Source of the DNA: a virus
Reading direction: 5' to 3' (one strand)
Virus record (IMG/VR): IMGVR_UViG_3300043436_001510
Coordinates: 1-24,165 of that record
DNA: 24,165 nucleotides
Within the stretch, counting starts at the first letter, position 1. Each line of letters begins with the position of its first letter. Below, in pieces: positions 1 through 15,370 of this stretch. The notes under the pieces are model-generated. The model ran no database searches, was not told the DNA's origin, and saw nothing but the letters and a program-made list of their open reading frames with translations. Made by a program: the position numbers and the translations under genes.

Positions 1-871
1 TTTTAATTTGAGCTTTTATTTGCTCTGCTTTCATTTCTTCCGGTCTTTTATACTTGAATAACCCCTCAACCGAGAAGCCTTTGAAATCTCCGTTCTTAAT
101 AGATGCCCATACTTCTGGATTATCTACCTTAAAACTACCAAACCAACTACCCTCTGGTGCATCTTCAAATCCAACCATTGGTTGTATGCCTCTTTTCTTT
201 GAAGTAATAAAGCTCTCAAATAAAGTAACGCCATCAACGATTTGAGTAGGATCGTGCATTAAGTTTACGTTTGCTTGATATCCCTTTTGGAAGTACTTTT
301 GTACTATCTTTTGAATAGTAGCTGCATTGAATACCACATAATACTCTCCGTTTGCATCAAATCTGTATATTGGAGTATCGCTTAACATTAAAGGACCAGA
401 AACGATTTGCTCATCTTCATTGATTGAGAATTTCATTTTTTGAACGCTTGTTAGTTTATTTTCAGCCCAAGTTAAAGCAGCTTCGCCACCCCAAGCATCA
501 TACATTAATTTACCACAACCATCTTCGTAGCTTTTAGAGCTTTCTAAATCTACTTTGTGTCTGCTTAAATAAGAGTACATTCTTTGTATAGTATCTAAAC
601 TTATTGGCTCTCCACTTGATAATTGATTAGCTCTTGTTTTACCTACTTGAGTGCCACAAGTCCCCCAACCATTTTCTTCAGCCCAATCTAAAGCCTTTTG
701 AGCAGTATTCTTTACGCTCTCCGGATAGTCGCTAAATGAGTCAGCAAACTTTAAGAAATTCTTTTGAATTGCAGGTTTATCAACGAGTGCGATAAAGTCC
801 ACCTCACTATCATCGTTGAAGTCGGAGCTGATATCCAGGTAATAGAATGGAATGTTTGAGTCATATTTCAT
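1..871 (-). CDS. XkdF-like prohead protease with inserted domain (3' end outside window)
   Basis: Read from ATG at 871; 290 codons are visible and the frame is still open at the window edge. The N-terminus (residues about 10-35, ending VDFIALVDKPAI) and the segment from residue 146 onward (SGPLMLSDTPIYR, then GEYYVVF, NVNLMHDPT, KGFSVEGLF) are the pattern of XkdF-type phage serine proteases, which mature the prohead by cutting scaffold and capsid N-termini. His206 in the LMHD motif and Ser267 in FSVEG are the likely catalytic pair. Between these parts lies an insert at about residues 48-140 containing CGTQVGKTRANQL and DAWGGEAALTWAENKL, which resembles a separate domain seen in other phage head proteins. 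The gene follows the tape measure after a 20-bp gap; capsid and portal genes presumably lie past the edge. The family call is from motif recognition, without a database search. Confidence 0.82.
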   Translation of the reverse strand, partial: MKYDSNIPFYYLDISSDFNDDSEVDFIALVDKPAIQKNFLKFADSFSDYPESVKNTAQKALDWAEENGWGTCGTQVGKTRANQLSSGEPISLDTIQRMYSYLSRHKVDLESSKSYEDGCGKLMYDAWGGEAALTWAENKLTSVQKMKFSINEDEQIVSGPLMLSDTPIYRFDANGEYYVVFNAATIQKIVQKYFQKGYQANVNLMHDPTQIVDGVTLFESFITSKKRGIQPMVGFEDAPEGSWFGSFKVDNPEVWASIKNGDFKGFSVEGLFKYKRPEEMKAEQIKAQIK

Positions 872-891
872 ATTAATAAATAGTTTAAATG

Positions 892-2547
892 TTATTTAAA
901 GCGACTTGAATTAAGTATTCTTGTTACTCTATTTTGTGAATTTGTTACATCGCTCTCTAAAACGTATGCTTTTATAGCTTGATTTCCGAGTGCGTTTATT
1001 GTGCCTTGATTTAATTGAGTTACTGTATTTTGCATAGGAGCTGGACTTACCGGAGCTGCACCAAAACTACCAGTTGGCATATTTACACCTCCAGCACTAC
1101 TTGCTCCAGGAGTTTTTACGTCTCTAATTTTTTGTACTGATTTATAACCAGCATATAAAGCTATACCTGCATTAATAGGAGCTAAAGCTGGTCCGACAAC
1201 TGGAATACCTACTGTACTTTCATAAGCCTTTTGAGCTGATAAGATAGCAGATATAATAGCACTTGAAATAGCCAATGCTTTTTGAGTATCACTTCCTTCA
1301 TCTGCTAATTGACTTGCAGTAGCTAAACTTTGCGAAATAGCATCAAGAGCTATAATAGCTGACTCCATTTTAGCACGAGCTAATAACCTTTCCGAGTCTG
1401 CAACTTGAGTATTTAAAACAATGTTTTGTTTTTTTAGTTTGCTAACATCTTTATAACTATTTTGCTCTTCTGTAGATGCAATTTGAGTTATTGACTTCAT
1501 TTCAGTTAACTCAATCTTGCTATCCTCAAATTCTTTCTTTCTTTTTTCTGCTGCCTCTTTAGCTTGTCTGGCTGACTCTTGCCTTCTCTTTCTTTCTGCT
1601 GCTTGATATTCGTAATTAGCAACTATACCCTCAGCATTTGACTTATTTATAGTATTTAAAGCCTCTTTTGCACCTTGTTGGTCTATTTTTTTAATATCGT
1701 TATAATATCTAATTTGAGCTTCTGTTTTTCTTCTTCTATAACTTTGCTCAATTTCAAATATTTCTTTCTCACTTGCTCCCCTTGCTTTAGCTTTAGCTAT
1801 ATCTATTGATTTTTGATTTTCTAAAGATTGAGTTAGTTGGTCAAGCTCGTATTTGCTACCATCTTTAATTGTTTTATTAAACTCTTTTTGTCTTTCGGTT
1901 GCTTCTTTAGTAGCATTTGACAATTGGTCAAAATAAGAAACTGCTTGTCCTAAAGCAACTACAAGCAAACCTATACCAGTTGCAGCAATAGCTCCTTTTA
2001 GAACATTAAATGCTACGCTTGTAGTTTCTACCTCAATACCAAACAGTCGCATTGTAACTGCTGCAGCCTTTGTCGCTAATTCATTTGCCTTAATTACAAT
2101 GGTGCTATTTTGAATAACAGATATTAAGTTTTTAAAGCCTTGAATACCAGTATCTAAAAATGTATTTAAACCCTCACTTAAAGCTAAAGCACCTTGTACT
2201 TTTACTAAAGTTTGTTGCAAATCCTCACTCTCAATTCCAAAAGTAGCCATTGCCCCTTGTACTGCTGCAAACCCACCGGCTACACCTTGCAAAGATTGAC
2301 TAAAAGCTCTAAATTTAGCATCTGGATTAAAAGCATCTGCCATACTTTTAGCATCTCCAATTCTATCTCTTAACTCGGCTACTCGTTTCGCTGCATTAAC
2401 TGCTTCTTGTGATCCTTCTCCAAATTTGGCTGCTAAAGATACCAAATCATTTGTAGCATCTCTTAATTGCTTCTTAATACTACCAACTGACTCAACTGCT
2501 TGAGATGAGTCAATTACTATCTTTGTGCCTACTATATTATCTGCCAT
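892..2547 (-). CDS. Tail tape measure protein
   Basis: 551 residues, alanine- and glutamine-rich and mostly helical. Hydrophobic stretches occur at about residues 180-202 and 423-470, and long charged coiled-coil segments at about 210-400, with a Gly/Pro/Ser-rich tail from 478 and a conserved-looking end (AYVLESDVTNSQNRVTRIL). This alternation of coiled coil and membrane-type helices is typical of tape measure proteins, which set tail length and help DNA cross the envelope. By the usual rule of about 1.5 angstrom per residue it would specify a tail near 80 nm, short for a siphovirus (inference). It starts one base after the stop of the 713-residue structural gene and is followed by the protease gene, consistent with one late operon. 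Confidence 0.85.
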   Translation of the reverse strand: MADNIVGTKIVIDSSQAVESVGSIKKQLRDATNDLVSLAAKFGEGSQEAVNAAKRVAELRDRIGDAKSMADAFNPDAKFRAFSQSLQGVAGGFAAVQGAMATFGIESEDLQQTLVKVQGALALSEGLNTFLDTGIQGFKNLISVIQNSTIVIKANELATKAAAVTMRLFGIEVETTSVAFNVLKGAIAATGIGLLVVALGQAVSYFDQLSNATKEATERQKEFNKTIKDGSKYELDQLTQSLENQKSIDIAKAKARGASEKEIFEIEQSYRRRKTEAQIRYYNDIKKIDQQGAKEALNTINKSNAEGIVANYEYQAAERKRRQESARQAKEAAEKRKKEFEDSKIELTEMKSITQIASTEEQNSYKDVSKLKKQNIVLNTQVADSERLLARAKMESAIIALDAISQSLATASQLADEGSDTQKALAISSAIISAILSAQKAYESTVGIPVVGPALAPINAGIALYAGYKSVQKIRDVKTPGASSAGGVNMPTGSFGAAPVSPAPMQNTVTQLNQGTINALGNQAIKAYVLESDVTNSQNRVTRILNSSRFK

Positions 2548-2548
2548 T

Positions 2549-4690
2549 TTAATAAATTGTGTCTATTACTTTTAATAATTCTACTTTCGTAGGTTTCTCG
2601 CTTAATGGATCATAACCCTCAACTTTGTTTATTCTCCACATCGTTCCATCTATAAGTATGTTTTTTGCAAAATCTAATGTTCTTATATCCATGCTCGTTA
2701 AATGAAATTGAGCAGTCAAGATTGTACTATTAGGATTTGTTATCTCTGCAAAGTATTGACTCCAGAATGAATTGAATAATCCATAATTAACTGTAGTGCC
2801 GGTAATCGTGTAGTAAATCTCTTTTGGAGATGCCCAACCTAAAGATTGAAAGTAAGTGCCATTATCTGGAACAGTCGGATGCTCCCACATACCAGAATAA
2901 GGAAATTGAGTTATGTTTGTTTGAATATTACCTCCACTTGTATTCTTAATATCCCAGTTAGCTACAGTTAGCATTTTCGTTTGTAGAATACGGATGTTGC
3001 TTGAAGTAATACTCTCATCTGCAAAGTTACCCTCTTTATATAAAGCCGGTACTATTTTAGGCTGATTATTTGGTGCATAGTTTACAGTAGATGCAAATAT
3101 AACCTCTAAATCATCTTTGTCTTTAGCATATTCGTATTCGCTATCATAGCTGAAGTCCATATACCCTTCATTAAACTTCTCTTTGTAAGTTTTATTATAA
3201 TAAGCATCATCTTGCTTAAATTTAAAATTAAATACCCTTGCATTCAATTCGCCCATAGGTTTTAACCTAATCTCTTGACTTCTATCAAGTTTATCACTCC
3301 AATCTAAATTCTCATTTAAGTAGAAATCTATATATGGTGTGATTATCAGTTTTTTAGCTATATTCTTATCTTCAACCACATAAAGATTAAACATTTTAAG
3401 GATTGAAGTAAAGAAGTCCGTTATCTTGATGTTTTGTGGTACTGCATAACGCATTTGAATAGTATCATTAATTACTGCTGGACTTAATACCTTAACCGGA
3501 GCATCAATTGTCCAAGTATTAATATAAACATCTAAACCTACACTAAAAGTACCACCACCGGCTGGAGTGTATAAAATATTAACTTTAAATATATCATTTA
3601 CTGCTATTGATGCAGTTGTAGATATGTTTTTAAGGTATCTAAAATTAAAACCTGGCCCAGTAGGGAAGCCACTTGTATTAAAACTATCTAAAGTTTGAAA
3701 AAATGCACCATTCTTCCATAATTCAAATGAATAAGTACCTGGCCCAAGAGAAAAACGCATATCAAAACCGAAGTTAAAATTGATATTTGTCAATGCACTT
3801 ATACCAACATATTGATATTGCCCACTTCCTATTGAATTGAAATCCCTAAAACTACCACTTGTCCATAGTAAAGTATAAGGAGATGCGTTAAATGTAGTAC
3901 TATAATTACTCCCTAAATCTAATAAGTTAGTAACTTGTATTTTTAATCTGTCATCGTTATTAGGAACTATTAGCCTTTTAAAAAATGCAGTATCAAAAAA
4001 ATCACATTCGTAAGTATATCCACTTAAATTGAATATCCTTTGTATGTATTCCCTTACATAAACTGCCGGTCTTAATGCTTGTTCGTAAAAATGGTTTCTT
4101 GCAGAAGTTTCAGCTACCTTGCCATAGTCAATCAATGGATAGAAATACCCAACACCTGGATTTGAATTTCTGTTATTCCAAGATGCCACCATATTTGCAT
4201 AGGTATAAGTATGGTTTAAATCTGTAAAGTCAATATTTTCTAATAAGCTAACACCATTTGATATATTTGAAATACTATCGGTTGTGCCTTTGCTTAATTC
4301 AAAATAAAACCCACCTAATTCGCCAAATACTGCACATTCGTACTCTACATGATTAGCATACTTGACAACCTCCATAACCCTTAATTTACCCTTAAAGATT
4401 TGGATATTGTCTACTAATATAACACAGTTACTACCATTAGCAGCTATGTAATTCTCATTAACATTAGGTGCAAATTGGTTTACATTCTCAATAGCTATAA
4501 ATCTTCCAAGCTCGGAGATATGGTTGAATATTTTGTTATTCTTTTGAGTACCTTGAATTACTATTGTCTTTGAATAGCTCGTATTTTTACTACCGAAGTC
4601 CTTTACATCATCTATAACATAGCTAATCTCACAAGCTATGTCATCTGTTAAATCTAATTCAAAACCCTCTACAAATATTTGTGTTCTCAT
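2549..4690 (-). CDS. Large tail/baseplate structural protein
   Basis: 713 residues with high Asn, Tyr, Phe and Thr content and no signal peptide or membrane segment, as expected of a virion protein. The N-terminus (residues about 24-65) contains KNTSYSKTIVIQGTQKNNKIF. The C-terminus has LDFAKNILIDGTMWRINKVE followed by a short strand-rich end (TKVELLKV). Similar N- and C-terminal blocks occur in large tail-associated proteins of Bacteroidota phages, but I cannot assign it to a named tail component such as distal tail protein or hub. It overlaps the upstream 392-residue gene by one base (ATG inside TAATG) and is followed immediately by the tape measure. Its size and place fit a tail tip or baseplate part; that role is inferred. 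Confidence 0.7.
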   Translation of the reverse strand: MRTQIFVEGFELDLTDDIACEISYVIDDVKDFGSKNTSYSKTIVIQGTQKNNKIFNHISELGRFIAIENVNQFAPNVNENYIAANGSNCVILVDNIQIFKGKLRVMEVVKYANHVEYECAVFGELGGFYFELSKGTTDSISNISNGVSLLENIDFTDLNHTYTYANMVASWNNRNSNPGVGYFYPLIDYGKVAETSARNHFYEQALRPAVYVREYIQRIFNLSGYTYECDFFDTAFFKRLIVPNNDDRLKIQVTNLLDLGSNYSTTFNASPYTLLWTSGSFRDFNSIGSGQYQYVGISALTNINFNFGFDMRFSLGPGTYSFELWKNGAFFQTLDSFNTSGFPTGPGFNFRYLKNISTTASIAVNDIFKVNILYTPAGGGTFSVGLDVYINTWTIDAPVKVLSPAVINDTIQMRYAVPQNIKITDFFTSILKMFNLYVVEDKNIAKKLIITPYIDFYLNENLDWSDKLDRSQEIRLKPMGELNARVFNFKFKQDDAYYNKTYKEKFNEGYMDFSYDSEYEYAKDKDDLEVIFASTVNYAPNNQPKIVPALYKEGNFADESITSSNIRILQTKMLTVANWDIKNTSGGNIQTNITQFPYSGMWEHPTVPDNGTYFQSLGWASPKEIYYTITGTTVNYGLFNSFWSQYFAEITNPNSTILTAQFHLTSMDIRTLDFAKNILIDGTMWRINKVEGYDPLSEKPTKVELLKVIDTIY

Positions 4691-5868
4691 TATCGTAATT
4701 GTGTGGATTGTGTGCCTAATAGAATGTCTATCTCTAAATTAAATATTTTATCTGCTCCTCTTTTCTTTTCTGCCCAATCGCTTGTTTCTATCGTTACCGG
4801 TATCATTAAAGCATTATTGTCTATTTGAGCAAATACTTGTGGAGAAGCTAACAATTCTCTTAACCATAAGAAATCAGTTTCGCTAACATAGTCGCTTACT
4901 AATTTAATCTTATGAGTCATTGTATTTGAGTAGTTAGTTTTAACCTCGCCTAAAGTGTTATTATAAACTCTATTTATGTTTACTCCAATATCAAAAGCAC
5001 TTGTTGTGTAGGTTGTAATTAACCCTAACTTATTAATTGATTGTCTCTCTATGTTTGTATTAACACGATTAACCCCAGAAAATAAGAAGCTCTCAAAACC
5101 ACCCATTGCGTTAAGGAAGTGCAACATTACCGGATTGTTCTTTGTGCAGTTAAAGTTTATACTTATCGTAGTGTCATTAAGCACATTGTGTAATGGATCG
5201 CCATCAATATCAAAATATAAACTGTTAGTATCACCAAATAAAATATCATAGGTCAATTTAGCATTATATACTCCTATTGCATTCAAAGAGTCAGCAAATG
5301 AATAAGTCGCTGGACTTGCTAAAGTCCCAAAATTAACTGTACCTCCAACATAGGTTTGCGATTTGAATATAGGAATATAAACCGAGTAATTCCCATAAGA
5401 ATTAATTGTTCTATATCTATTTGTACTTAAATACAAAGGTAATGCTCCACCATAAGAAACTAAACCTAAATCCGGCAGTAAACTATCGTTTAAGAATGAT
5501 GGATAACCATACCAAGCATAACTCGTTTCAGTAGCTACATTGGTTGTAATTACTCCACTTGTATTCTCCGTTCCGTATTTAACTTGGTATTCTATATAAG
5601 GAAAGTATGCAGAGCTTATATTAGCTTGAATATAGTTTTTTATTATAGGAGCTACATCAAGATAAGCATGATAAGTAGCACCAAAAGTTATGGCTTTAAA
5701 TTCTCTTAAAACCATTACTCCGTTAATATATACATCAAATATATAACGATTATAAGCATAACTTGGAGTAGTTATAGGTTGATTTTCTCCGAATGCGTGA
5801 ATGACTGGTCTGCATATTGACCTCATTTGATTTCTGGCATAATTGCCTTGTAAAATTGCAAGTCCCAT
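4690..5868 (-). CDS. Putative tail-associated structural protein
   Basis: 392 residues, rich in Tyr, Asn, Ser and Thr with alternating hydrophobic residues, suggesting a mainly beta protein. No signal peptide, catalytic motif or membrane segment is seen. The end of the chain (TIETSDWAEKKRGADKIFNL) resembles the end of proteins found beside tape measure genes in related phages. The start ATG at 5868 overlaps the stop of the upstream gene by one base, and its own stop overlaps the start of the 713-residue gene by one base. It therefore belongs to the tail operon. Whether it is a tail tube, distal tail or receptor-binding part cannot be told from the sequence. Confidence 0.65.
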   Translation of the reverse strand: MGLAILQGNYARNQMRSICRPVIHAFGENQPITTPSYAYNRYIFDVYINGVMVLREFKAITFGATYHAYLDVAPIIKNYIQANISSAYFPYIEYQVKYGTENTSGVITTNVATETSYAWYGYPSFLNDSLLPDLGLVSYGGALPLYLSTNRYRTINSYGNYSVYIPIFKSQTYVGGTVNFGTLASPATYSFADSLNAIGVYNAKLTYDILFGDTNSLYFDIDGDPLHNVLNDTTISINFNCTKNNPVMLHFLNAMGGFESFLFSGVNRVNTNIERQSINKLGLITTYTTSAFDIGVNINRVYNNTLGEVKTNYSNTMTHKIKLVSDYVSETDFLWLRELLASPQVFAQIDNNALMIPVTIETSDWAEKKRGADKIFNLEIDILLGTQSTQLR

Positions 5869-10262: not shown

Positions 10263-10697
10263 TTAAAATTCTACTCCACAAGATGGGCAGATAGTTCCAG
10301 TTCCTTTTGTATTATCCTCTTCCTTATCTTCATTCCAAATAGGCACATCAAGTCCCCAATTTTGAAGTTCTATAGCGTCCCATTCATTCGCTAACTGCTC
10401 ATAATCCCACTCTCCAGCATTGATATTATCTCTAATTAAGAACTCCTTTAGCTCTTTAGCATTAAAATCAGTTGCTTTCTTTACCCAAGTATCTTCTATT
10501 TCTTTATAATTTAAGTCAAGTAAAGCCCTATATCTTTGATTGCCGCCTACTATTATGTTATTCTCATCTACAATTATAGGTCTTAATTCAAGCATTTTAG
10601 GGAATGTCCTTATGCTTTCTACCAATTTCTTAAAATTCTCGTTTCTTACTACTCTTGGATTTTCTGGATTGAGCTTTAAACTTGATAATTTTATCAT
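10263..10697 (-). CDS. ParB/Srx-fold nuclease-like protein
   Basis: 144 residues. The N-terminal 80 residues fit the ParB N-terminal fold: LKLNPENPRV, then KLVESIRTFP, then LRPIIVDENNIIVGGNQRYR, which holds the GGNQRYRA signature for nucleotide binding. The middle (AKELKEFLIRDNINAGEWDY) is usual for phage ParB-like proteins, which often come with adenine methyltransferases. The last residues contain CPSCGVEF, half of a zinc ribbon; a second Cys pair is absent. No methyltransferase gene is seen next to it. Its start overlaps the HAD gene's stop by four bases. A role in DNA modification or nuclease control is possible, not shown. Confidence 0.82.
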   Translation of the reverse strand: MIKLSSLKLNPENPRVVRNENFKKLVESIRTFPKMLELRPIIVDENNIIVGGNQRYRALLDLNYKEIEDTWVKKATDFNAKELKEFLIRDNINAGEWDYEQLANEWDAIELQNWGLDVPIWNEDKEEDNTKGTGTICPSCGVEF

Positions 10698-11125
10698 TTG
10701 AATAGTTTACCCTCTGTTTTAGTCATTTTGTTTATTAAATCTATTTGCTCTTGGTTGTTATCGTAATGGATAGCAACTCCCAATCTTTTAACTGTTTCCC
10801 ACTTGTTCTTTCCATTGGTAAAGTAAATATCACTTCTTCTTATGCCTAATTTATCAGCAACATCATAAACCTCTTTACTATCCTTGCTTTGTCTTGCAGT
10901 AATAATCAACACTCGGTAATTCTCTGCTAATAGTTGCTTTGCTTTCTCTTGACCTTTATCAGTACTTAAAGTATCATCAAAATCAAAACTTACTATTTTA
11001 GTAGCAAATTCTCCTTGAGCCAGGATTGCACGATATACTTTCTCTGCCTTGGATTTCGTATCATAGATACAAGCTCCATTCCCTATCCTATACTTTCCGT
11101 TAGATGAGCACTTATAAATTGGCAT
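10694..11125 (-). CDS. HAD-family phosphatase fused to a small N-terminal domain
   Basis: 143 residues in two parts. Residues 1-40 (MPIYKCSSNGKYRIGNGACI, then YDTKSKAEKVYRAILAQ) resemble a short domain usually found at the end of other phage proteins. Residues 42-140 are a small HAD phosphatase: motif I SFDFDDTLS, motif II VLIITAR, the motif III Lys in NGKNKWETV, and motif IV HYDNNQEQID. There is almost no cap, as in polynucleotide 5'/3'-phosphatase or nucleotidase relatives. Substrate is unknown; a nucleotide or nucleic-acid end is plausible given the phage context. It overlaps the preceding gene by 14 bases. Confidence 0.78.
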   Translation of the reverse strand: MPIYKCSSNGKYRIGNGACIYDTKSKAEKVYRAILAQGEFATKIVSFDFDDTLSTDKGQEKAKQLLAENYRVLIITARQSKDSKEVYDVADKLGIRRSDIYFTNGKNKWETVKRLGVAIHYDNNQEQIDLINKMTKTEGKLFK

Positions 11126-13174: not shown

Positions 13175-13513
13175 TCACAATTTGTAATAATTGTTAATAG
13201 TTTGCATAAACTCATCTAAATTCCAGCATACTGCACATAAGTAGCCTTTTTTAGTTAGATAAGCCATTATTTTCTTTTGGGCTTCACTTGGTTTATTATA
13301 TCCGTATTTCATTTCAATATAAAGTCCATGATATTCGCCCATTGGAGTTGGAATAAATAAGTCCGGAACGCCACTTACTACTCCTTCTGCTTTTAATCGT
13401 TTTGCAGTACTGAAATGCCTAAACCCGCCGTTCGGGATGCTGTATATAAGCTCTCTTGGGTATTGTAGTTTAAACCAGTTGATACAGTTTACTTGTAATT
13501 GATGCTCAGACAT
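13175..13513 (-). CDS. VRR-NUC domain nuclease
   Basis: 112 residues. A complete VRR-NUC module: Glu3 and Gln5 at the start (MSEHQLQVNCINWFK), PNGGFRHFSTAKRLKAEG, then GVVSGVPDLFIP with the key Asp, then YHGLYIEMKYG with the Glu-x-Lys pair. This is the PD-(D/E)xK type fold found alone in many phages and in FAN1-type nucleases, and it acts on branched or flapped DNA. Its start overlaps the end of the deaminase gene by eight bases. A part in resolving replication or recombination intermediates, or in degrading host DNA, is plausible. Confidence 0.88.
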   Translation of the reverse strand: MSEHQLQVNCINWFKLQYPRELIYSIPNGGFRHFSTAKRLKAEGVVSGVPDLFIPTPMGEYHGLYIEMKYGYNKPSEAQKKIMAYLTKKGYLCAVCWNLDEFMQTINNYYKL

Positions 13514-13907
13514 TAATTTTAATACAGTTTATATTTGCTTTATTCAAGAGTTTTATGCCATCTGTATCTCTATATTCTTCTTTATAAAAAACTTCTTTAA
13601 TTCCAGATTGAATTATAAGTTTTGAGCATTCCATACAAGGGGATAAGGTTACATATAAACTTGATCCATCTGAACTCTCATTAGATCTTGCACATTTAGT
13701 TATGCAATTGCTTTCAGCATGTATAACTTCTTTTTTTGTTATACCATTTTCTTCACAAGCGTTATCAAAACCAGAAGGCGTACCATTGTAGCCAATGCTT
13801 ATTATACGATTATTTTTAACAAGCACAGCACCAACTTTTTTCCTTTCAGCTTTTGAATGTTTAGAAATTGTTTCTGCTATTTCAATATATGTATTATGCC
13901 AATTCAT
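13506..13907 (-). CDS. dCMP deaminase
   Basis: 133 residues from ATG at 13907 (MNWHNTYIEIAETISKHSKA). A longer version from TTG at 13916 is possible but less likely, since an ATG with overlap into the upstream gene is present. Zinc-site motifs of the cytidine/dCMP deaminase family are intact: His63-Ala-Glu65 and Pro90-Cys91-x2-Cys94, with GYNGTPSGFDN at 39-49, the usual dCMP-deaminase substrate loop. It converts dCMP to dUMP, feeding thymidylate synthesis. It overlaps the MazG-like gene by 14 bases. Together with the TS-family enzyme and the pyrophosphatase it recalls the T4 set of dCTPase, deaminase and dCMP-modifying enzyme. Confidence 0.9.
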   Translation of the reverse strand: MNWHNTYIEIAETISKHSKAERKKVGAVLVKNNRIISIGYNGTPSGFDNACEENGITKKEVIHAESNCITKCARSNESSDGSSLYVTLSPCMECSKLIIQSGIKEVFYKEEYRDTDGIKLLNKANINCIKINV

Positions 13908-14202
13908 TCTTAACAAATGTTCCGTTAATCATTGATCCATTTCTTTTTGCTATAATATTATAAGCGCTATTTATGCAATCTTCAATATTATACCCTTTTA
14001 ATGCAGCTAAATTAGTTAATACCACTACACAATCGCCAATAGCATCAATAAATTCTTCTTCGTCATTTTTTAAAATTGATTTTGATAATTCACCGGCTTC
14101 CTCAAATAATTTAATACATTGAGTTTTTGGATCCCCATTATCTATTATCCCTTTGCTTTTTGCCCAATCTCTTATAGATTGAAATTCATTTTTTAGTTCC
14201 AT
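13894..14202 (-). CDS. MazG-like nucleoside triphosphate pyrophosphohydrolase
   Basis: 102 residues. The all-alpha NTP pyrophosphatase metal site is visible: Glu34-Glu35-x2-Glu38 in FEEAGELSKS, then Glu50-x2-Asp53 in EFIDAIGD, with Asp57 close by. The end has AYNIIAKRNGSMINGTF, common in this subfamily. Such enzymes hydrolyse dNTPs to dNMP and pyrophosphate. In this position, directly between the TS-family gene (one-base TAATG overlap) and dCMP deaminase, a dCTP or dUTP pyrophosphatase that supplies dCMP or dUMP is the natural guess. The substrate cannot be read from sequence. Confidence 0.85.
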   Translation of the reverse strand: MELKNEFQSIRDWAKSKGIIDNGDPKTQCIKLFEEAGELSKSILKNDEEEFIDAIGDCVVVLTNLAALKGYNIEDCINSAYNIIAKRNGSMINGTFVKNELA

Positions 14203-14978
14203 TAGTTGTTCATTTTAGCTTTTATAAATTTTGTATAATTATAATTATTCAATATTACATTATTATAATGAAAATTATCAATATTATCTTTTATAGTTAG
14301 TGTTGGGTATTTATTAGCGTTTAAATCAATACATTCTTTAGCTTGATCATAATGGTCCTCATATAAATGTAAATTTGAAACATAATATGACAAATAAGAT
14401 TTTTTTATATTTAACTCATTGCAAATAAGCTTTGTTAAAATAGCATAAGAAGCGATATCAAATGGCAGGCCTAAAAAAGCATCTGCACTTCTTTGATATA
14501 CCGAAGTATATAATTTATTATTTACAATATTAAATTGAAACAATATATGGCATGAAGGCAAACAAGCTAATTCTAATTCAGCAGGATTCCAAGCTGTAAC
14601 AACTGCCCTTCTTGAGCTTTTATCGCTTTTTAAAATATTAATAGCATTTCTTAATTGATCTATTTCATTATTCCATGATCGCCATTGTATTCCATAATTT
14701 CTTCCAATGCCGTCCATATTTGCATCATCAATATTTTTATCCCAAATAAAAACGCCAATATCATTCAAGTCTTTCTTTTTTTCAATTTTATTCAAAAAAC
14801 AATAAAGCTCTTTTGATACTTGATTAATATTTAACTTTTTTGAAGTAGTAGCTGGGAATTTTGACAAATTAAATGTTTTATGCCAACCAATAAATACACG
14901 AGCCTTTCCAGCTCGTGTATCTTGTAATTCACATTTAATTAATTTTTGTAGTACTACTTGCAACCAATCTTTTTTCAT
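14202..14978 (-). CDS. Thymidylate synthase family enzyme with Asp at the pyrimidine-specificity site
   Basis: 258 residues. Family landmarks are intact: Glu57 in KELYCFL, IWDKN at 78-82, YGIQWRSW at 95-102, Arg123-Arg124 (SRRAVV), the nucleophile Cys143 in LPSCHILFQF, QRSADAFLGLPFDIASYA at 162-179, and His204/Tyr206 in SNLHLYEDHYDQ. At residue 174 the motif reads LPFDIASYA; canonical dUMP enzymes read LPFNIASYA. In this family that Asn binds the uracil ring, while Asp is found in T4 dCMP hydroxymethylase and gives dCMP methylation when put into L. casei TS. The enzyme therefore probably acts on dCMP, making 5-methyl- or 5-hydroxymethyl-dCMP. The sequence does not settle which. The gene is very AT-rich compared with the terminase. 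Confidence 0.85.
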   Translation of the reverse strand: MKKDWLQVVLQKLIKCELQDTRAGKARVFIGWHKTFNLSKFPATTSKKLNINQVSKELYCFLNKIEKKKDLNDIGVFIWDKNIDDANMDGIGRNYGIQWRSWNNEIDQLRNAINILKSDKSSRRAVVTAWNPAELELACLPSCHILFQFNIVNNKLYTSVYQRSADAFLGLPFDIASYAILTKLICNELNIKKSYLSYYVSNLHLYEDHYDQAKECIDLNANKYPTLTIKDNIDNFHYNNVILNNYNYTKFIKAKMNN

Positions 14979-15108
14979 AAAAATACCATTTAATTGATTT
15001 TACATTAATTGTAGGATTTTCCTGTTTAATTAAGTTAACAATTTCATTAACTTTTAGATTTTGAGCTTTTAGCTCTTTTACTCTGCTTTTTAGTGATTGT
15101 TTTTTCAT
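14935..15108 (-). CDS. Small HTH-like protein overlapping both neighbours, 57 aa
   Basis: Translated from ATG at 15108: MKKQSLKSRVKELKAQNLKV, then NEIVNLIKQENPTINVKSIK, then WYFYEKRL and a short polar end. The middle has the rhythm of a small helix-turn-helix domain (NEIVNLIKQ, turn, VKSIKWYFYEKRL), a type seen among tiny phage proteins. It overlaps the end of the DUF6378-like gene by 62 bases and the start of the TS-family gene by 44 bases, so it fills what would otherwise be a 68-bp gap. The uneven overlaps lower confidence. A regulatory role is only a guess. Confidence 0.55.
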   Translation of the reverse strand: MKKQSLKSRVKELKAQNLKVNEIVNLIKQENPTINVKSIKWYFYEKRLVASSTTKIN

Positions 15109-15370
15109 TGTTCTTGTTTTTGTGGTTAAATAAAGCGGTTATATATGCGATCATATCTAAATAAGTATCCTCTTTGTGATTATAAGCCATTCTGGACAAT
15201 TTAAGAGCTATTAATACTTTATATATATCTTCAGTATTTAAGTCTTTATTGCACAATTGAGATGCTATTACGGCTGTTTTAAATAAAGAGTCATCAAAAG
15301 GTCCATATTGCCTTTCTTTTTCTTCTTTTCTTTTGTATACAATGTTGTTTGCTTTTTCTAAAATGTTCAT
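15047..15370 (-). CDS. DUF6378-like protein
   Basis: 107 residues. The start (EKANNIVYKRKEEKERQYGP) followed by FDDSLFKTAVIASQL, IYKVLIALKLSRMAYN and HKEDTYLDMIAYITAL fits the DUF6378 type: small all-alpha phage proteins found with nucleotide-metabolism genes, possibly distant MazG relatives. From about residue 84 the chain is a charged low-complexity tail (KKQSKRAKSSKSKS) that coincides with the start of the overlapping 57-codon frame. That tail may therefore be shaped by the second frame. It heads the nucleotide block after a 54-bp gap in which I see no promoter box. Confidence 0.7.
   Translation of the reverse strand: MNILEKANNIVYKRKEEKERQYGPFDDSLFKTAVIASQLCNKDLNTEDIYKVLIALKLSRMAYNHKEDTYLDMIAYITALFNHKNKNNEKTITKKQSKRAKSSKSKS

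Follow-up and report, generated by a model that had tools for sequence, protein, structure and literature searches.

Does a phage enzyme of the thymidylate synthase (TS) family that carries Asp at the pyrimidine-recognition position act on dCMP, and if so, what becomes of its product? The question is raised by an ORF at positions 14202-14978 (minus strand) of IMG/VR record IMGVR_UViG_3300043436_001510, the whole of which (24,165 bases, classed as linear) was analyzed and is referred to here as the window. Asp at this position, 177 in the numbering of the Escherichia coli TS (EcTS), is used as an indicator that a phage genome contains modified cytosine. Nearly all genes of the window lie on the minus strand, and the affinity of its terminase to those of a human fecal phage and of Bacteroides and Phocaeicola phages, together with a GC content of 32% and SD-like motifs upstream of 3 of the 37 genes, suggests that the host belongs to the Bacteroidota.

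The ORF starts with ATG, encodes 258 amino acids, and matches the PF00303 profile over nearly its entire length (E 1.9e-64). Its AlphaFold2 model (pLDDT 95.4) superposes on the Mycobacterium tuberculosis and E. coli TSs with a Z score of 34 and an rmsd of 1.6 to 1.7 over 254 residues (4fog, rmsd 1.6), so that both profile and fold place it in the TS superfamily; by sequence, too, the closest solved structures are bacterial TSs. The absence of dCMP hydroxymethylases and MilA from the best 50 structural matches listed is no evidence against kinship with these enzymes. In common with ThyA, the protein has the catalytic Cys, Arg, and His/Tyr set and the length of the C-terminal tail, and the alignment confirms the retention of E57, W79, Y95, R123/R124, C143, R163, S164, D166, H204, and Y206. 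The Asn found at EcTS 177 in dUMP-specific TSs is absent and is replaced by Asp174 (codon GAT, 14459-14457), which aligns with E. coli TS Asn177 and T4 gp42 Asp179. The first-pass annotation, which described a TS-family enzyme with a GAT-encoded Asp in place of Asn and the other catalytic residues kept, was thus correct. The protein further differs from ThyA in having Cys139 at EcTS Ala142, a tail ending in KMNN, and Asn82 at EcTS Trp83, the last of which is also common among Asn-type phage TSs. The substitutions Trp83-to-Asn, Ala144-to-Pro, and Val262-to-Met were considered as special marks of the enzyme and dropped, being common in Asn-type phage TSs.

Asp174 is neither a chance substitution nor an error, given that the equivalent residue is Asp in a second, 99% identical contig and in six more close contigs, encoded by GAT or GAC, and that the gene evolves under purifying selection among the close contigs (dN/dS 0.06-0.26). 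DNA encoding exactly LPFDIASYA was detected in only 14 IMG/VR contigs. An Asn-to-Asp change at 177 can switch a TS from dUMP to dCMP, with 5-methyl-dCMP as the product, as reported in the MetaGPA study, which cites mutant work on this switch of canonical TS to dCMP methylation and found mostly Asp in the TSs on contigs with experimentally modified cytosine (PMC8670742). The same Asp is listed for the cytosine-using enzymes T4 gp42, MilA, and BcmA in the work on MilA (PMC5175136). The identification of Asp174 and its interpretation as a dCMP marker hold up.

The set of homologs sampled comprised 78 viral or MAG rows, 17 of them with Asp at 177, a proportion that gives no estimate of frequency because Asp rows were deliberately sought. 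Two trees were built, one of 82 rows and the other after masking of positions 142, 177, and 263. Both place the window enzyme in a clade made up of 15 Asp rows together with two Asn rows on long branches; T4 gp42, the Xp12-genus proteins, and 57 Asn-type phage TSs all fall outside it. Constraining the 15 Asp rows together was not rejected (p-AU 0.62). Asp177 is fixed in the close group of the window and nearly fixed in its clade, and Cys at EcTS Ala142 is common to the Asp rows of the clade. Asp177 is therefore present in several lineages. The two Asn rows within the clade (L042, 4980-5837; L102, 4998-5861) have Cys142 but Asn177 and lack a neighboring deaminase gene; their Asn177 could be a reversion, the ancestral state, or a long-branch artifact. 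In a Bacteroidales MAG contig (L103, 4998-5801), Asp177 occurs in an otherwise canonical TS (Trp83, Val262), beside which no deaminase was found.

The best contextual evidence, absent from the first-pass finding, comes from the neighboring genes, all on the minus strand. The TS stop overlaps (TAATG) the start of a gene for a MazG-like all-alpha NTP pyrophosphohydrolase (13894-14202; PF03819, with PRA-PH PF01503 below cut-off), a candidate dCTP pyrophosphatase, and the end of this gene in turn overlaps the gene for a dCMP deaminase (13506-13916; PF00383, PF14437). The latter protein, a candidate (5-methyl-)dCMP deaminase, has HAE and SPCxxC zinc motifs and a GYNG motif, and the position of T4 Y153 is occupied by Tyr. 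A DUF6378 protein (15047-15370; PF19905) accompanies the trio in four close relatives (L005, L014, L015, and L022). In two of these, L005 and L014, the terminase and gene order are unlike those of the window, yet the unit of DUF6378, TS, MazG, and deaminase is retained and hence behaves as one module. Membership of the VRR-NUC nuclease gene (13175-13513) is doubtful; it overlaps the end of the deaminase gene and keeps this position only in the same-species contig. Across the sample, 14 of the 17 Asp rows but 1 of the 61 Asn rows have a dCMP deaminase gene no more than 2.5 kb away and on the same strand, an association for which the Fisher test (p 1e-11) is overstated, since kinship leaves only three phylogenetic pairs, that is, few independent changes. 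Within the window clade, all 15 Asp rows have the deaminase, counting the L007 contig read past the locus end, and a MazG/PRA-PH pyrophosphohydrolase often joins it.

Similar gene combinations are present in known systems. In the MetaGPA study, PRA-PH, PF00383, and PF14437 are named as TS partners in modified contigs (PMC8670742), and the window shares with this network Asp177, the deaminase matching both families, and the PRA-PH/MazG neighbor. It differs in the TS-like His (His144) at EcTS 147, a position that differs in modified contigs (PMC8670742), and in that no carbamoyltransferase was found in the 12 related Asp contigs searched. DoCa6, DLP4, and PaMx74 stood in for Xp12, Bosa, and FMYAK-P1 in our comparisons. 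The Xp12-genus enzyme (Bosavirus DoCa6) and its relative in PaMx74 likewise have Asp177 and MazG/PRA-PH and dCMP deaminase neighbors, but they occupy a separate tree branch (on the other side of a starred branch), with a different gene order and Pro at EcTS 147; furthermore, the DNA of Xp12 contains 5mC, which is a possible constituent of the window phage's DNA. MilA-type CMP hydroxymethylases have Ala and Lys in the ribose pocket, in contrast to the window enzyme, which keeps Ser164 and Arg123/Arg124. Considering the Asp177 clade and its linkage to deaminase and MazG/PRA-PH genes, as in the Xp12-genus and MetaGPA contigs, dCMP is very probably the substrate, in agreement with the first-pass proposal.

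As to the product, the hydroxymethylase signature derived from the T4 ternary complex has two elements: an acidic residue (Asp or Glu) at position -3 from the catalytic Cys, and Ser, replaced by Thr in some phages, at position -2 from the active-site Tyr (PMC6400193). In the window enzyme, the first of these positions is Leu140 (catalytic Cys143) and the second is Arg93 (Arg93-Asn94-Tyr95), not Ser/Thr; its tail, ending in IKAKMNN, is full length. Leu140, Arg93, and the full-length tail make TS-type methylation likelier, and the predicted product is accordingly more likely 5-methyl-dCMP than its hydroxymethyl counterpart. Asn94, equivalent to EcTS Val93, could together with the polar end of the tail (MNN) admit water.

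These features can be combined in a scheme in which the MazG-like enzyme would supply dCMP (from dCTP, for instance), the Asp177 enzyme would convert dCMP and 5,10-methylene-tetrahydrofolate to 5-methyl-dCMP by TS-type reductive methylation, and the deaminase would turn part or all of the latter into dTMP; if phosphorylated, 5-methyl-dCMP could also enter DNA as 5mC. The dCMP deaminases accept 5-methyl- and 5-hydroxymethyl-dCMP, and that of Xp12 turns 5-methyl-dCTP into dTTP (PMC12088426). We regard the methylation step as reasonably probable, with that probability divided about equally between DNA rich in 5mC and DNA without much of it. The scheme is favored by the occurrence of the same trio in DoCa6 and PaMx74 and by the searches of 12 Asp contigs, in which neither ThyX nor a second TS turned up. 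Counting against it are the retained His147, as opposed to the MetaGPA difference and the Xp12-genus Pro at this position, Asn94 with the polar tail end, the three-pair basis of the deaminase association, and the failure to find a DHFR gene in the window or the other Asp contigs searched, although the record is incomplete and DHFR can come from the host.

The fate of the product bears on the DNA itself. The window contains no TCGA and no CTAG, against 39 and 55 expected from trinucleotides, and is also short of GATC, CATG, GGCC, and ACGT; shuffling codons of the main genes while preserving the proteins gave means of 24 TCGA and 39 CTAG and minima of 12 and 23. Depletion is also seen (observed/expected) in the same-species contig L002 (TCGA 1/16, CTAG 0/20), in L005 and L014 taken together (CTAG 5/67, GATC 6/43, CATG 14/70, GGCC 4/29), and in ordinary Bacteroides phages from the group with the nearest terminases, such as EMB1 (GATC 0/81, CTAG 0/68). 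CCGG is over-represented in the window (36 vs. 20 expected). Relative to expectation, the overall palindrome level is 0.57-0.70 in most members of the group to which the window belongs, 0.86-1.03 in the distant Asp177 contigs, and 1.00-1.06 in the Xp12-genus phages and PaMx74; for 55 Asn-type contigs the median is 0.80. As a sign of unprotected DNA, such avoidance is suggestive only, because T4, with its modified DNA, avoids palindromes as well (0.78) and because the contrast between distant Asp and Asn contigs (p 4e-4) mixes hosts. Nevertheless, the strong depletion in the window and its relatives argues against long-standing, complete protection in this lineage. Protection from restriction, which the first-pass annotation had proposed, is not supported and is the weakest part of that reading.

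In the special case of our scheme that resembles Xp12, 5-methyl-dCMP would be phosphorylated and 5mC would replace most virion cytosine; the role of the MazG-like enzyme would be to clear dCTP, and that of the deaminase to provide dTTP. The gene trio shared with Xp12-genus phages, the MetaGPA link of Asp177 TS, PRA-PH, and deaminase genes to fully modified contigs, and the weak palindrome avoidance common to distant Asp177 contigs and Xp12-genus phages all fit this case; we nonetheless consider it somewhat unlikely for the window, where the palindrome depletion speaks against it, an objection softened by the avoidance in T4 and by the tolerance of some restriction enzymes (TaqI, MboI) to 5mC. 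The cassette might, moreover, be recent in the genomes of the window group and thus compatible with 5mC despite the depletion. Searches of the Asp contigs for a T4 gp1-type deoxynucleotide kinase found none, a point against this case that loses force because DoCa6 lacks one as well. At the other end of our scheme lies a dUMP-free, inverted thymidylate route from dCTP to dCMP (MazG-like enzyme), 5-methyl-dCMP, and dTMP (deaminase), in which modified cytosine would be scarce in or absent from the DNA. As the exclusive outcome it appears rather unlikely, but the cassette may serve such a route either alone or alongside DNA modification. If 5-methyl-dCMP is mainly a step to dTMP, thymidylate synthesis would have a second reaction order, and the residue by itself would be an unsafe basis for inferring DNA modification; the clade combining Asp177 with the deaminase holds one lineage with the sequence footprint of unprotected DNA.

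A dCMP hydroxymethylase generating 5hmC, possibly glycosylated in relatives, appears distinctly unlikely. The window enzyme and T4 gp42 are both phage-encoded TS-family members with Asp at the pyrimidine-recognition position, and the pair of Asn94 and the polar tail end would suit a hydroxymethylase; however, the two share 22% identity, the T4 signature residues Asp145 and Ser94 have no counterparts in the window enzyme, and T4 gp42 lacks the C-terminal tail. With the signature missing and the fold closest to full-tailed TSs, the first-pass analogy with T4 is weakened, and the palindrome depletion is a further objection. A few kilobases from the cassette, L005 and L014 encode a hexapeptide transferase and proteins predicted to be glycosyltransferases (phrog_7162, GT2), which would fit glycosylated 5hmC, but no glycosyltransferase match was found in the window. 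In L014, the hexapeptide transferase, GT2, and phrog_7162 genes lie upstream of the terminase (3127-5266), and this GT2 is the only one among the Asp contigs searched.

An ordinary TS that still prefers dUMP and tolerates Asp, with the deaminase feeding dUMP by the standard route to dTMP through dCMP deaminase and TS, is highly unlikely, because even though His147, Leu143, Trp80 (EcTS numbering), and the tail are TS-like and the nearest solved structures are TSs, Asn-to-Asp at 177 moves TS toward dCMP, Asp is retained across a diverse clade, and most sampled Asn-type relatives have no neighboring deaminase.

Two further ORFs deserve mention. The window encodes at 10694-11125 a small, possibly HAD-like protein with weak matches to PF06189 (5'-nucleotidase, below cut-off) and to polynucleotide kinase families. 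In L007, the TS-family ORF (530-1921, minus strand; 464 amino acids) has, midway through the TS domain, an in-frame insert of ~170 amino acids, without a stop, which by eye resembles phage AP2/HNH-type sequence.
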